A stretch of DNA of 64,000 nucleotides from Candidatus Azobacteroides sp. (GTDB lineage Bacteria; Bacteroidota; Bacteroidia; Bacteroidales; WRGA01). Each line of letters opens with the position of its first letter. Position 1 is the stretch's first letter. The stretch spans positions 1 to 64,000 of the forward strand of contig JAJQEC010000073.1 in NCBI GenBank assembly GCA_021201815.1, in the 5' to 3' direction. The position numbers and the translations under genes are program-made. Positions 2,424 to 56,862 of the stretch are shown piece after piece. The notes under the pieces were generated by a model. The model was not told the origin of the DNA. It saw only the letters and a program-made list of their open reading frames with translations, and ran no database searches.

Positions 2424-2697
2424 TAAATGGAATGAATTATTTTGTTTTTTAATAAAGTCATTTGTGGTATGTTTACCGCTTTCCATTTGCCTTCCTCTCA
2501 AGAGATGAGTATGAATCTAAATAATAGGAAGCCGGTTATAACTCAAAATAAACGGAACTATATTCATATAAAAAATTTAAAATAACCTAGGAAAAAGAAG
2601 GAATATATTGTATATTTGTATGTGCATTGATTTATTATGTAAAATAATAAACGTTGCCTTTCTTCAACTGACTAATTTCTCTTGTAATACATGTTAT

Positions 2698-2779
2698 CGT
2701 TCCACTTTAGTGGTATGATCATACCACTAAAGTGGAACGACCATATCACTGGAGTGGTATGACCGTACCACTCCAGTGG
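2698..2779. repeat. Tandem palindrome array, four units at exactly 22 bp
   Basis: Palindromic cores of the form CCACT-NN-AGTGG start at 2702 (NN=TT), 2724 (AA), 2746 (GG, first base T) and 2768 (CC), each exactly 22 bp after the last. The ten-base spacers are related (TATGATCATA, AACGACCATA, TATGACCGTA). The first two units together form a perfect 42-bp palindrome, 2698-2739. No gene overlaps it. The design resembles the 23-bp array at 55319-55487, though the core sequence differs. Confidence 0.9.
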
Positions 2780-3116
2780 TACGGTTATCTTTTCAGGGTG
2801 TGTGGATCACTTTACCCGTATGAAAAGATAACTTATGCCAAGCGAAAGGATAACTTTTGTAGCTTTTCTTTTATATTGTTTATTCGATTTCTTGTCCATG
2901 CAGAAAAAGCGACGGATACTTATAAGATAAAAAGAAATATCCGAATCCATCGCATCATTGGATAAGAGGTGGGATATAAGTAAACTATGGCAAACAAAAG
3001 ACAAGCATCTCATCCGCGGTGGAAATCAGACATTCATTCAATATATACCTGCCTACTCCGTAAAACCCTCTATTTTTCAGGTTTTACCATTTACTTTTTA
3101 CTTTTTACCTCTTTAG

Positions 3117-6669: not shown

Positions 6670-8613
6670 ATGAAAAAAATAATTATTCCATATTTGATTT
6701 CGGGGATAACGGCATTTCTCTTATTCTGTCCGCTTGTCATACAGGCACAGCATCCTCCCTTAAGTCGGGAATTACTGGAGGCCGGCGAAGAACAACGCCG
6801 GGATATGAGTATGCCCGGTTCCCGGCTGGTCGTGAATTTTTATGACTTCAATGGAAAACAGACAGCCGTGGAATATAGCAACGGCCCTTCTGTGCCTTTA
6901 CATATTGCTTACTTATCGACAGAAAAGAATGAACCGGGAAAAAGTCCAAAAACCCGGTTCAGCCGTGCCGTAAAAGATTTACTTATGGTTGGGCGCTCTT
7001 TTGAGCCATTCCGACAGGCAATCATGGATGCTCCGGAAAAGGAAGTGAAAACCTTCCATACCCGGTGGATGCCCCACGCCTTGCCTTTTCAGGTAATATA
7101 TAATGATTGTGCGGAGATAGACGGAACAGATTTTTTTTATGATGAAAATACTTTAGTCCGAACATTGACTTTCCGGAGAAATACAAAAGGATATTTTTTT
7201 TTCGGAAATTATCATGGGAAAGCATACTGGCAGGATAGTATAATAAGAATAGAAAACAATCAGTTACAGTATGCCATTCGGTTTTCTCTTCCGGTTTCCG
7301 AATGGGCGATCACAGAAAGTACCTGGCATATAAAGCCGGCAGAAAATATATTATCGGAAAAGAAAGAACTAACGATAACGGTTGCTTTTGTAGGAAAAGA
7401 AGAGCCGGCAGATATGCTTCAGGAAAGAGTGGAGGCACCAGGAAAAAAGAATAACATATCTCAGGTACTTACGGAAAGGGAAGCATACTGGAATGACTTT
7501 TTATCAAAAGTTCCCTGTCCACCTCATTTTGGTTTACATGCTGTAGATACGTATGGCGTAACGGCGGAGGAAATCCGGTCTGCTTATTATAAAGCATGGG
7601 TATTTACTGCCCAGAATCTGTTGCCGGAAGATCCTGTTCGTTTTCCTTATCCTCAGTTCTGTACCGGAAAACCTTCTTTATGGGATGAAGGAGAAGAGCG
7701 GGCTCCTTTCTCTGCTGCCTGGGAAAGTTTTATCGGGATGCAGCTATATGCTTTTATCGATTCGGATATTTCCTGGGAGGCATTCAAAGGATTAATGTCG
7801 CTGGTAGATGAAAACGGCATGCTGGGAGGAGAAAGCCTGCCTTCCAGAAAAGCACAGACTGCTTTATTCCTGTATAGAATGACAAAAGACCGGAATTCGC
7901 TTGCAGAAGTCTATCCTGCATTGGAACGTTACCTGAACTGGCGGATAAAAATTACCCACTGGGTATACATGGATATGTTGCCGGATGAAAATACGAAGGA
8001 TGCGGAATTTGCCTTTTCGGCATTGGTAGATATGGAATATATGGCGGAAATTGCCGGTATCCTGGGACTGGAAGACGATAAGCGGCTATGGAAAGAAAAA
8101 CACCGGGTATTAAGAACTGCCTGCCTGCAATGGTTCTGGGAGACGCCGGATAGTCACCCTGTACAGTATTATAATCTGTCTTCCGGATTCAGGAACAATG
8201 GAAATGCCATTTGGGTAACGACCGGTTTATATGTGGACAGTTTATTGCATGGAAAATATAAAGAAAGCATGCTGGCTCTTTTTAACCGGTTTTATAATCT
8301 GGATCTCCCTTTTGCCGGATTTGATATCCCGAAATACCCGGACGTAAGTTACACGGTATACGGATTAATGAAAAATAACCGGCATAAAGAAGCTACCGGC
8401 TTACTGGAAGCGAATATCCGGGATATTGTAAGGGCCGGTTCCTCTTTTGCGGAACAATACATAGGAGAAGGGTTGGAACCGGACGGAGTACGTCCTTCTT
8501 TATTCGGCTCCAGTACCTTAATTGATTTTGTCCTGCTTATGAACGGGTACCGGTATGATACCGGGCTGCCTGTCACATTCATGGCACCATTTACCCGGCA
8601 AGAAAATAAATAA
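6670..8613 (+). CDS. Secreted (alpha/alpha)6-barrel glycosidase-like protein, copy 1
   Basis: Protein of 647 residues with a signal peptide ending near VIQAQ. An N-terminal beta-rich half (to about 260) is followed by a helical toroid: EIRSAYYKAWVFTAQN, then GKPSLWDEGEERAPFSAAWESFIGMQL, LMSLVDENGMLGGESLPSRKAQ, ALERYLNWRI and FAFSALVDMEYM. This layout, with acidic residues after LWD, resembles the six-hairpin glycosidases of families such as GH63, GH37 and GH78. I cannot assign a family. It is followed by a closely related paralogue, and the shared LWDEG...APFSAAWESF block is the most conserved part. Confidence 0.6.
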   Translation: MKKIIIPYLISGITAFLLFCPLVIQAQHPPLSRELLEAGEEQRRDMSMPGSRLVVNFYDFNGKQTAVEYSNGPSVPLHIAYLSTEKNEPGKSPKTRFSRAVKDLLMVGRSFEPFRQAIMDAPEKEVKTFHTRWMPHALPFQVIYNDCAEIDGTDFFYDENTLVRTLTFRRNTKGYFFFGNYHGKAYWQDSIIRIENNQLQYAIRFSLPVSEWAITESTWHIKPAENILSEKKELTITVAFVGKEEPADMLQERVEAPGKKNNISQVLTEREAYWNDFLSKVPCPPHFGLHAVDTYGVTAEEIRSAYYKAWVFTAQNLLPEDPVRFPYPQFCTGKPSLWDEGEERAPFSAAWESFIGMQLYAFIDSDISWEAFKGLMSLVDENGMLGGESLPSRKAQTALFLYRMTKDRNSLAEVYPALERYLNWRIKITHWVYMDMLPDENTKDAEFAFSALVDMEYMAEIAGILGLEDDKRLWKEKHRVLRTACLQWFWETPDSHPVQYYNLSSGFRNNGNAIWVTTGLYVDSLLHGKYKESMLALFNRFYNLDLPFAGFDIPKYPDVSYTVYGLMKNNRHKEATGLLEANIRDIVRAGSSFAEQYIGEGLEPDGVRPSLFGSSTLIDFVLLMNGYRYDTGLPVTFMAPFTRQENK

Positions 8614-54131: not shown

Positions 54132-55007
54132 TTAACTGAAAATGACAGTTTTATTTTTATATGTCAGTATTTTTCGTTCAATATGTTTTTCAATCGCCCG
54201 GGAAAGGACAATTTTTTCCAAATCCTGTCCTTTATGCACAAGATCTTCCACCGAATCTTTGTGCGTAATGCGGGTAATGTCCTGTTCAATAATAGGACCT
54301 GCATCCAGATCTGTCGTTACATAGTGACTGGTTGCTCCGATTAATTTCACACCCCTTTCATAAGCCGCATGATATGGCTTTGCACCTACAAAAGCCGGTA
54401 GAAAAGAATGGTGAATATTAATAATCTTGTCCGGATAGTGAGAAATGAAGTTCTCCGAGATAATTTGCATATAACGTGCCAGTACAATAAAATCAACTTT
54501 ATGTTCAGCCAGCAAAGCCAACTCTTTCGCTTCCTGTTTCGCTTTATTTTCTTTATTGACCGGAATAGTATGAAATTCAATTCCGAAACGTTCGGACACA
54601 CCTTTTAATTCATCGTGATTACTAATAATCAAAGGGATTTCCACATTCCATTCATTTGCCGTATAACGTGCTAAAATATCAAATAAACAGTGTGACATTT
54701 TAGAAACAAACAATGCCATTTTTGGCTTATAATCGTTGAAATATAACCGGAAATACATGTTATATTTTTGGGCATATAATGTTCGGAAATATTCTTCAAT
54801 TTTATCTTCCGGAATGATGAAATCGTTCAGAGACCATTCAATACGCATGAAGAAAACCTTTTCTACACTATCTACATGTTGGTCCAGATATAAAATATTA
54901 CCTTTATTAACAGTGATAAAGCTTGTTACAGCTGATACAATCCCTGGCAGATCCGGGCAGTGCATCAGCAGAATAGCAGTTTTCTGAGTGATTGCTTTTT
55001 TAGCCAT
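54132..55007 (-). CDS. purU: Formyltetrahydrofolate deformylase
   Basis: PurU hydrolyses 10-formyltetrahydrofolate to formate and tetrahydrofolate. It has 291 residues: an N-terminal ACT domain (AILLMHCPDLPGIVSAVTSFITVNKGNILYLDQHVD) and a formyltransferase-like domain with the PLIISNHDELK segment, the active site IINIHHSFLPAFVGAKPYHAAYERGVKLIGATSHYVTTDLDAGPIIEQD, and the conserved HKDSVEDLVHKGQDLEK. Promoter TATCTTTG on the minus strand is at 55028-55035. Confidence 0.96.
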   Translation of the reverse strand: MAKKAITQKTAILLMHCPDLPGIVSAVTSFITVNKGNILYLDQHVDSVEKVFFMRIEWSLNDFIIPEDKIEEYFRTLYAQKYNMYFRLYFNDYKPKMALFVSKMSHCLFDILARYTANEWNVEIPLIISNHDELKGVSERFGIEFHTIPVNKENKAKQEAKELALLAEHKVDFIVLARYMQIISENFISHYPDKIINIHHSFLPAFVGAKPYHAAYERGVKLIGATSHYVTTDLDAGPIIEQDITRITHKDSVEDLVHKGQDLEKIVLSRAIEKHIERKILTYKNKTVIFS

Positions 55008-55035: not shown

Positions 55036-55318
55036 CTAATTTTATATAATATGGAAGAAGTTTACCTATTATCTCTTTGCAAAATAGTGGTTTTGAAATT
55101 CAGACGGATTTCTTCCGGAGGTAAATATTTAATAGAATTAAAATATGGCATGGATAAAGATTGAGGTTAATAAATTTTTATCTTTTTAATTAAAACCCGG
55201 TACTTTTTTATTATTCTTGTTTTTTATTGGTCGGGGCTGAGGTGTTCTATTCCTAAGGGATCAAAAAGAATCGGGCTAATTGATAGGTTATCAGTCTTTT
55301 ATCCGTATCCTCGCCATA

Positions 55319-55487
55319 ATACGTATCACACCCCTGTGGTGATACGTATTTCACAGGTGTAGAAATACGTATTTCGATGAGGTACAAATACGTACTTCTA
55401 AGGCATAGAAATACGTATTTCTATGGGTGCGTAATACGTATTTCAACGGCACCCTAATACGTATTGCATAAGCACTGTGATACGTAT
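55319..55487. repeat. Tandem palindrome array, eight units at exactly 23 bp
   Basis: The octamer palindrome ATACGTAT starts at 55319, 55342, 55365, 55388 (last base C), 55411, 55434, 55457 and 55480, each exactly 23 bp after the last. The 15-base spacers vary, but their edges are often complementary (TTC...GAA, CAC...GTG), which extends several palindromes to 14-18 bp, for example TAGAAATACGTATTTCTA. It lies in a gene-free stretch with no associated cas or mobile genes. Confidence 0.92.
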
Positions 55488-55686
55488 CACGGCAGGGAGT
55501 TGAAAAGACTTATTTTATCTTCTTATAAGTCAACCTTTTATTCCGTTTTATTTCCATACTGTGAAATAAGAATAGAACCTGGCTGTTTCTTCTATGGGTA
55601 TGCATCCATAAAAGAAAGCATATGAAGGATAATAAAGTTTTAAAAGACGCAAGGGTAGGAAAATGTCGGAAGCTTTGTACCTTTTT

Positions 55687-56862
55687 CTATTTTAATGATA
55701 TAATCTCTTCCGCAAATTTCGTCAATGTTTCAATCCCATTTTCCGTAACCACATAGGAGTTTTCAATCCCTACTGCTCCTATTTCCGGCAGTACGAATTT
55801 TGGTTCCAGTGCAAACACCATATTTTCTTGCAAAGGTGTTTTAAATCTGGGGGCCAGTACCGGAAGTTCATTGATTTCAATCCCAATCCCATGTCCGATA
55901 AATTTTGCCTGTTGAGAAGTACCCATAAATTTATCCGAAAGATTATGTCTGGCAACGATCTCCATTCCAAGGTTGTAGATATCTTCGCATATTACGCCCG
56001 GTTTGGCGATATTCCTTACGGCATCATGTATTTCAATAGATACCTGATGGGCTTTGTAAGCTTCCTCCGTTAATTTCCCCACGCTGTAAGTACGGGTCAT
56101 ATCCGTAATATATCCCGTAAAAGTACCGCCTATATCTACCATCACAGCCATCCCTTCCTTTAGCCGTGTGTTATTGCCTCCGATCGGAATGGCCGGGTGT
56201 ATACCCTGCCCCCCCAGTGCAAAATCAAAAGGAGAAGGAGCTCCTGCGTTTTCTCCTGCCAGTACGCTACCTACAAAGATTTCCATACTCTGCCCGAAAG
56301 CACGGAAAACACCTATGGAACCTTCTTTCCGCATTTCATATTCAATTTCAATTGACAGGTCTATTTCTGTCATACCTGGTTTATAAAGAGAAGGGATTTT
56401 TGCATATACTTCTGCATGTTTCTTTGCGGATAAACGAAATTGTTCAATTTCATAAACTGTTTTAATGCTTCTTACTTTTCTTGCTAACATCGTAGCATCA
56501 CCGATTTGTTTCGGATTGAAGATTTTCTGCAGACGCATAATATCATTATAAGGGAGGTCACTGGTTTCCAGCATGATATTTTCCGGAATTTTTAATCCTT
56601 TTTTACTTAGAATCTCTTTAATCTGCTCTGGCTTTCTGATATAAAATATATTTTCACCTTCTATCCCTACAGGACGTTTGATAAAAAGTAACGGAGTTCC
56701 CTGTGAAGGGATATATAAATATCCGCTGATTATTTGTCCGCACAGATAGAAAAGGTTTACATTGGTAGAGAATAAAGAGGCTTCATAACCTTCTTTTATC
56801 ATTTCTTGCCTGATATTATTTCTGCGAAATTCCAGTTCTGAGGAAAGAATGTATTTATTCAT
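55687..56862 (-). CDS. M24 family Xaa-Pro aminopeptidase-like protein
   Basis: Creatinase-fold metallopeptidase of 391 residues. The N-terminal domain runs to about 140; the pita-bread catalytic domain has the metal ligands in AVMVDIGGTFTGYITDMTRTYSVG (two Asp), GHGIGIEINELPVLAPR (His, Glu) and NMVFALEPKFVLPEIGAVGIENSYVVTENG (Glu, Glu). It is probably a cytoplasmic prolidase-type enzyme; substrate specificity is not evident. Confidence 0.92.
   Translation of the reverse strand: MNKYILSSELEFRRNNIRQEMIKEGYEASLFSTNVNLFYLCGQIISGYLYIPSQGTPLLFIKRPVGIEGENIFYIRKPEQIKEILSKKGLKIPENIMLETSDLPYNDIMRLQKIFNPKQIGDATMLARKVRSIKTVYEIEQFRLSAKKHAEVYAKIPSLYKPGMTEIDLSIEIEYEMRKEGSIGVFRAFGQSMEIFVGSVLAGENAGAPSPFDFALGGQGIHPAIPIGGNNTRLKEGMAVMVDIGGTFTGYITDMTRTYSVGKLTEEAYKAHQVSIEIHDAVRNIAKPGVICEDIYNLGMEIVARHNLSDKFMGTSQQAKFIGHGIGIEINELPVLAPRFKTPLQENMVFALEPKFVLPEIGAVGIENSYVVTENGIETLTKFAEEIISLK

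Follow-up and report, generated by a model that had tools for sequence, protein, structure and literature searches.

A phased palindrome array between two minus-strand genes

The window analysed here is a 64,000-nucleotide stretch of DNA, in which a 679-bp gap between two minus-strand genes holds an array of short palindromes. The left-hand gene (54132..55007, minus strand), which we take from its protein sequence to be a formyltetrahydrofolate deformylase (purU-like) gene, has the array upstream of its start. The right-hand gene (55687..56862, minus strand), presumably encoding an M24 family (Xaa-Pro) peptidase, has it downstream of its end. The first-pass annotation had placed the array in gene-free DNA at an exact 23-bp interval, and both descriptions hold: the purU / M24 peptidase gap is intergenic, and the step is exactly 23 bp for all eight cores. 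The array spans 55319..55487 (plus strand), with 9-nt spacers between 14-bp dyads. The eight cores stand where they had been reported, but they are not identical as had been thought: seven are exact ATACGTAT (starting at 55319, 55342, 55365, 55411, 55434, 55457 and 55480) and the one at 55388 is a 1-base variant, ATACGTAC. Exact ATACGTAT occurs eight times in the whole window, the eighth match being at 7547, whereas 100 dinucleotide shuffles of the window averaged 0.88 matches and never exceeded 4. Thus, the phased cluster is far beyond chance.

The anatomy of the unit was derived from 69 distinct units, which have a dyad of 14 bp. Within it, TACGTA is nearly invariant, and the bases at +/-4, 5 and 6 show complementary covariation far above column-shuffled expectation, with A-T, G-C and C-G pairs all seen at position +/-4. 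This covariation may stem from quasi-palindrome correction, from a need to form hairpins or from selection for symmetry, and it does not decide between a DNA and an RNA function. The rest of the 23-bp unit is a 9-nt non-palindromic spacer. Spacers had been described as variable, and they do differ; they are not random, however. Most focal spacers are versions of a single 9-nt motif with A-N-GG in it. In most copies, spacers 1 and 2 are reverse complements of each other (ACCCCTGT / ACAGGGGT), so that a longer hairpin can form with core 2 at its centre.

A MITE-like element with the array as its minisatellite

A search of the window's own genome (4.22 Mb, 151 contigs) with a 200-bp query returned six further near-complete copies at 80-87% identity, plus fragments. 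Counting the window copy, the genome therefore carries seven near-full copies, each between unrelated genes. Aligned copies have a common leader, array and tail over about 430-450 bp, and the four whose full length was determined come to 449-452 bp. In the window, alignment with the six other copies places the leader at 55211..55318 (plus strand), where BLAST-level homology begins at about 55232, and the tail lies at 55488..55662 (plus strand). The element ends in terminal inverted repeats (TIRs) of ~20 bp with the consensus CAGGGTTGATGYATTAAAAT, which are found at both ends in C96, C85, C34 and C6 and also at the left end in C67. In the window copy, the outer TIRs of leader and tail are both degenerate (the tail TIR reads ATTTTAATGC...CTCTA in C6). 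Allowing at most 3 mismatches, the TIR motif has 14 matches in the genome and its reversed control pattern has 0. Most copies have 8 cores; C122 has 9, C114 has 2 and C91 has 1. Cores 3-5 and their spacers are almost invariant among copies, the flanks of which differ by ~20%.

The element is thus short, multicopy and intergenic, has no conserved ORF, and is bounded by TIRs, in keeping with the size, copy number and ends of a MITE. We conclude that the focal array is the internal minisatellite of a TIR-bounded, non-autonomous, BrickBuilt-like MITE. No clear direct repeat that could be a target site duplication was present at the four best copies, the genome has no DDE_Tnp_1 (PF01609) gene, and the TIR-bearing loci examined showed no obvious transposase. 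In the same-genus genomes G001 and G002, purU is present in a different neighbourhood without synteny at the focal site, so these genomes offer no empty site for the focal element. Where the neighbours of focal-family copies were read, the copies lie in convergent or tandem gaps and none is in a divergent promoter region, which makes an operator role for the dispersed copies doubtful.

TACGTA cores at a 23-bp period had been predicted elsewhere in the order. They were found in G387 and in a Prevotellaceae MAG locus (L062, see below), and they are rare. In G387, which belongs to another family of the order, five ACATACGTATGT-like units with an exact 23-bp period (L065, 1494-1610, on contig C22) lie in an integrative conjugative element between genes that we take from their proteins to be traJ- and traK-like; no HU-HIG gene was seen in this 3-kb locus. 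Two phage contigs each carry three RTACGTAY repeats at 23-bp spacing (L063, 264-317; L064, 524-577). They were rejected as relatives of the array, their sequence being otherwise unrelated, and these repeats are possibly operator or origin repeats.

Arrays of the same kind adjoin HU-HIG genes

Bare arrays of the focal 23-bp unit type adjoin genes of the HU-HIG family (PF18291) at C92 (AAGTACGTACTTCTAAG) and C10 (GAACTACGTAGTTC), and a third bare 23-bp array, that of L062, also borders a HU-HIG gene. The leader and tail of the MITE were looked for at the C10 and C92 HU-HIG loci and neither was found, indicating that the arrays there are not simply MITE copies. None of the ORFs flanking the focal copy is a HU-HIG gene.

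A gene was scored as linked if a tandem array with a period of 19-25 lay no more than 500 bp away, and canonical HU genes were scanned identically. C92 had prompted the HU-HIG hypothesis and L062 had been found via its array, while G025 and G031, each with several HU-HIG genes, were among 25 genomes drawn evenly from the same order. A nearby array accompanies 15/18 HU-HIG genes in the own genome, 7/15 in G025, 3/4 in G031 and 13/19 in a set that joins L062 with C10 protein relatives encoded in further genomes of the order. In total, 38 of 56 HU-HIG genes from 17 genomes have an array, compared with 2 of 26 canonical HU genes (Fisher p=2e-7); with the own genome left out, the count is 23/38 (p=1.8e-5). 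Against the measured genomic array density, binomial p was 2e-16 for the own genome and 2e-8 for G025, and when array density near genes was assumed to be 5-fold higher these values became 2e-6 and 6e-4, respectively.

Periods near HU-HIG genes cluster at 21, 22 and 23 and their doubles. Most linked arrays have a core of their own (CCACTNNAGTGG, CCACATATGTGG, TGACCGGTCGTT, CTACCTTAAGGTAG, AAAAGATGTACATCTTTT and others), and taken together they exceed shuffles in palindromy, with a dyad score of at least 5 of 6 in 59% vs 24%. Arrays 3' of short HU-HIG genes often consist of AAAAGC-NNNN-GCTTTT units (L100, L103, L226, L233, L196 and L225), which look like tandem intrinsic terminators. We also observed that two broken-looking HU-HIG genes, with a frameshift-like end and stop codons, keep their arrays (L107 and L109, on C149 and C8 of the own genome).

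About a third of the HU-HIG genes have no detected array, in a survey where TRF misses arrays below ~70% unit identity, contigs are fragmentary and several HU-HIG genes lie close to contig ends. Five of the G025 genes (L184-L188) are near-identical and have no detectable array; they represent a recent amplification at odds with gene-array pairing. To our knowledge, HU-HIG proteins have no known DNA target. The same kind of array beside HU-HIG genes in many relatives suggests an unreported pairing of a protein with an array that it would bind. In the papers searched on HU and HU-HIG genes, outside Burroughs et al. 2017, no description of adjacent tandem palindrome arrays was found.

Dispersed arrays match specific HU-HIG-linked types

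Sixteen dispersed arrays from 755 kb of the own genome were compared with the HU-HIG-linked arrays, and 9 of them each match a specific linked array far above a period-preserving null. The focal array scores 72 against the C92 array and 64 against the C10 array (null maximum 25). A second dispersed array in the window (2690..2790, no strand assigned; CCACTNNAGTGG, 22-bp period, four units) lies between trpF and GH130-type genes and is of the type found 5' of the C136 HU-HIG gene; its units have alternating complementary centres (TT/AA, GG/CC), and the stretch 2702-2781 scores 106 against the C136 array (null maximum 26). The array at C93:159582 scores 160 against the C147 array. In G025, the dispersed array L207:16399 has, by eye, the unit of the L194/L195-linked array. 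Another dispersed repeat, GCCACGGAGTGGC ... AGCCGTG..., was seen beside several arrays of both kinds (L047, 4840-5040; L048, 5040-5105; L121, 5340-5640).

The comparison of C10 with the focal array separates cores from spacers. The spacers match at 7.4 of 9 positions (null 4.7), whereas the C10 cores are CTACGTAG (one is CCACGTAG), which end in GTAG rather than in GTAT as in ATACGTAT. The cores have therefore changed together while the spacers stayed individual. Amplification of one unit would have homogenised the spacers too, and a concerted change of the cores thus fits a shift in protein specificity, of which it is a suggestive trace rather than proof. The spacers of the C18 array showed no match to the focal spacers above chance; as a whole, this array matches that of C10.

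HU-HIG phylogeny and protein architecture

Mapped onto a HU-HIG domain tree, array side requires 3 changes (null mean 12, minimum 7) and array period requires 7 (null mean 12, minimum 9). Where winged-helix HU-HIG genes have a detected array, it is always 5'. C10, L222 (54% identical to C10) and L062 form one tree group, all with 23-bp arrays. Common inheritance of gene and array accounts for part of this pattern, which is not by itself proof of binding.

The C92, C10, C136 and L062 proteins are clear members of PF18291. An AF2 model of C92 built from an alignment (pLDDT 91.8; a single sequence gave 41) consists of an HU-type domain followed by a C-terminal winged helix. HU proteins favour bent, nicked and cruciform DNA, a preference that would suit palindrome arrays. 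The solved structures closest to the model are B. vulgatus BVU_2165 (4fmr) and HU proteins.

A proposed captured binding array and its alternatives

The first-pass annotation had offered a protein-bound array, a structured RNA or selfish growth as explanations. Two of the three are supported, selfish growth by MITE-like dispersal with 1, 2, 8 or 9 units and protein binding by the linkage to HU-HIG genes. Since array units recur beside HU-HIG genes, protein binding is the leading mechanism. What has to be explained is the array itself, the ~450-bp TIR family with its varying unit number, the HU-HIG linkage in 17 genomes, the match of dispersed to linked types, and the clade-structured side and period. 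On balance, we favour the explanation that the focal minisatellite is a copy of a HU-HIG-linked dyad array, presumably bound by HU-HIG protein, that was captured in a BrickBuilt-like MITE.

HU-HIG paralogs in this order tend to have an array of ~21-23-bp units immediately 5' or 3', usually with a palindromic and paralog-specific core; in this model, it is the "home" array of the gene. The HU-HIG protein would bind the repeated dyads cooperatively, and at the home locus this binding would be autoregulatory or would organise nucleoprotein. MITEs would then have captured home arrays and spread extra binding sites. A C10- or C92-type HU-HIG protein may be the partner of the focal array. The dispersed copies may be passengers, or may take effect as decoy or anchoring sites.

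Several observations count against this explanation: not all linked units are clean palindromes, dispersed copies lie outside divergent promoter regions, about a third of HU-HIG genes are without a detected array, and a dyad could covary to several symmetric states without fixed sequence recognition. Nor did the searches above bring to light a parent transposase or a target duplication.

The alternative that survives best, although we think it unlikely, is an ordinary MITE that trapped a minisatellite and has no partner protein, in which units were gained by slippage or recombination and closeness to HU-HIG genes is incidental. A TIR-bounded ~450-bp family with a varying unit number is what such an element would leave, and BrickBuilt, described as a MITE that has trapped a 23-nt repeat, is a precedent (PMC4596501). 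Incidental closeness is at odds with the excess of arrays at HU-HIG genes over canonical HU controls, with the bare arrays that have neither leader nor tail, and with a concerted core change in which spacers were preserved.

We regard as still less probable an element acting at the RNA level, that is, a transcribed array whose hairpins serve as terminators, mRNA stabilisers or a small RNA. Complementary covariation and the terminator-like arrays 3' of short HU-HIG genes would fit such a role, as would the strong predicted folds of the 436 nt around the focal array, with z-scores of -6.4 (plus strand) and -8.6 (minus strand). A fold that is strong on both strands is, however, expected of any palindrome array. 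A search of Rfam gave chance microRNA-type matches only, all below gathering scores, the 5' arrays of the winged-helix clade are not terminator-like, and phased sets of 3-8 are not how ordinary terminators occur.

That a HU-HIG gene and its array are the relic of a segregation or replication module of mobile elements, the array being a partition-, centromere- or iteron-like site, seems quite improbable. Tandem phased arrays beside the gene of a DNA-binding protein do have the layout of such a module, and the array of G387 lies in the tra region of an integrative element, but the HU-HIG genes examined stand alone among chromosomal genes, with no ATPase, Rep or relaxase gene recognised beside them. 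REP/BIME-like palindromes moved by a Y1 (TnpA-REP/RAYT) transposase would also be dispersed and intergenic, and the C147 HU-HIG array has a Y1 gene close by. This explanation is largely refuted: the genome has only two further Y1 genes, both without such arrays in their vicinity, none of the three adjoins a focal-type array, and the common leader, tail and TIRs of the element are unlike REPs.

Beyond this probable capture of a HU-HIG-linked array, we propose more tentatively that HU-HIG genes and ~22-bp palindrome arrays are widespread paired modules in Bacteroidales-type bacteria. The many paralogs of one genome would each have an array code of their own, cores would move in concert whenever specificity shifts, and MITEs, by copying arrays around the chromosome, would rewire the positions of the proteins, with BrickBuilt as one instance. 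Some of these bacteria have many HU-HIG proteins, and a candidate target nearby makes the function of many paralogs directly testable. The pairing would give a possible meaning to BrickBuilt-type minisatellite MITEs, so far described without a protein partner. It would also provide a natural series of protein-site pairs in which to ask how DNA-binding specificity changes when many sites must shift together.

Comparison with known systems

REP/BIME elements with RAYT resemble the focal element as dispersed intergenic palindromes in head-to-tail or inverted groups; the focal element differs in its fixed 23-bp phase, its leader, tail and TIRs, and in having no consistent association with a Y1 gene, on which ground a TnpA-REP assignment was rejected. 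Plasmid iterons and parS/parC arrays share with the HU-HIG arrays the arrangement of phased tandem sites beside the gene of a DNA-binding protein. The HU-HIG arrays differ from them in being chromosomal, with many paralogous pairs per genome, and no gene of the Rep, Par or relaxase kind was recognised.

Among named elements, BrickBuilt of Porphyromonas gingivalis comes closest, with 23-nt tandem units between a leader and a tail, and with TIRs (PMC4596501). The earlier statement that no named element has such a design is therefore incorrect. In the parts of that report that describe the family, one genome holds 19 intergenic copies that vary in unit number and are predicted to form long stem-loops; the element is reported there from P. 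gingivalis and P. gulae only, and no link to HU genes is drawn in those parts (PMC4596501). The shortest copy, BrickBuilt_14 (84 nt), has no TIR listed, adjoins PGN_0872, a PF00216 DNA-binding protein gene, and keeps the same two flanking genes in the strains compared (PMC4596501, Table 1). HU-HIG family PF18291, to which the C92, C10, C136 and L062 proteins belong, is related to HU family PF00216. A PF00216 neighbour fits the predicted home array, and as one neighbour among 38 it is weak evidence alone. The focal element has the leader, 23-nt tandem units and tail of a BrickBuilt, while the BrickBuilt unit AGAYCATARTATCCTCTCRTRTG and its IS5-type TIR GAGACCTTTGCA are unrelated to the focal units and TIR. 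Thus, the focal element works like BrickBuilt but is a distinct element with a unit and ends of its own.
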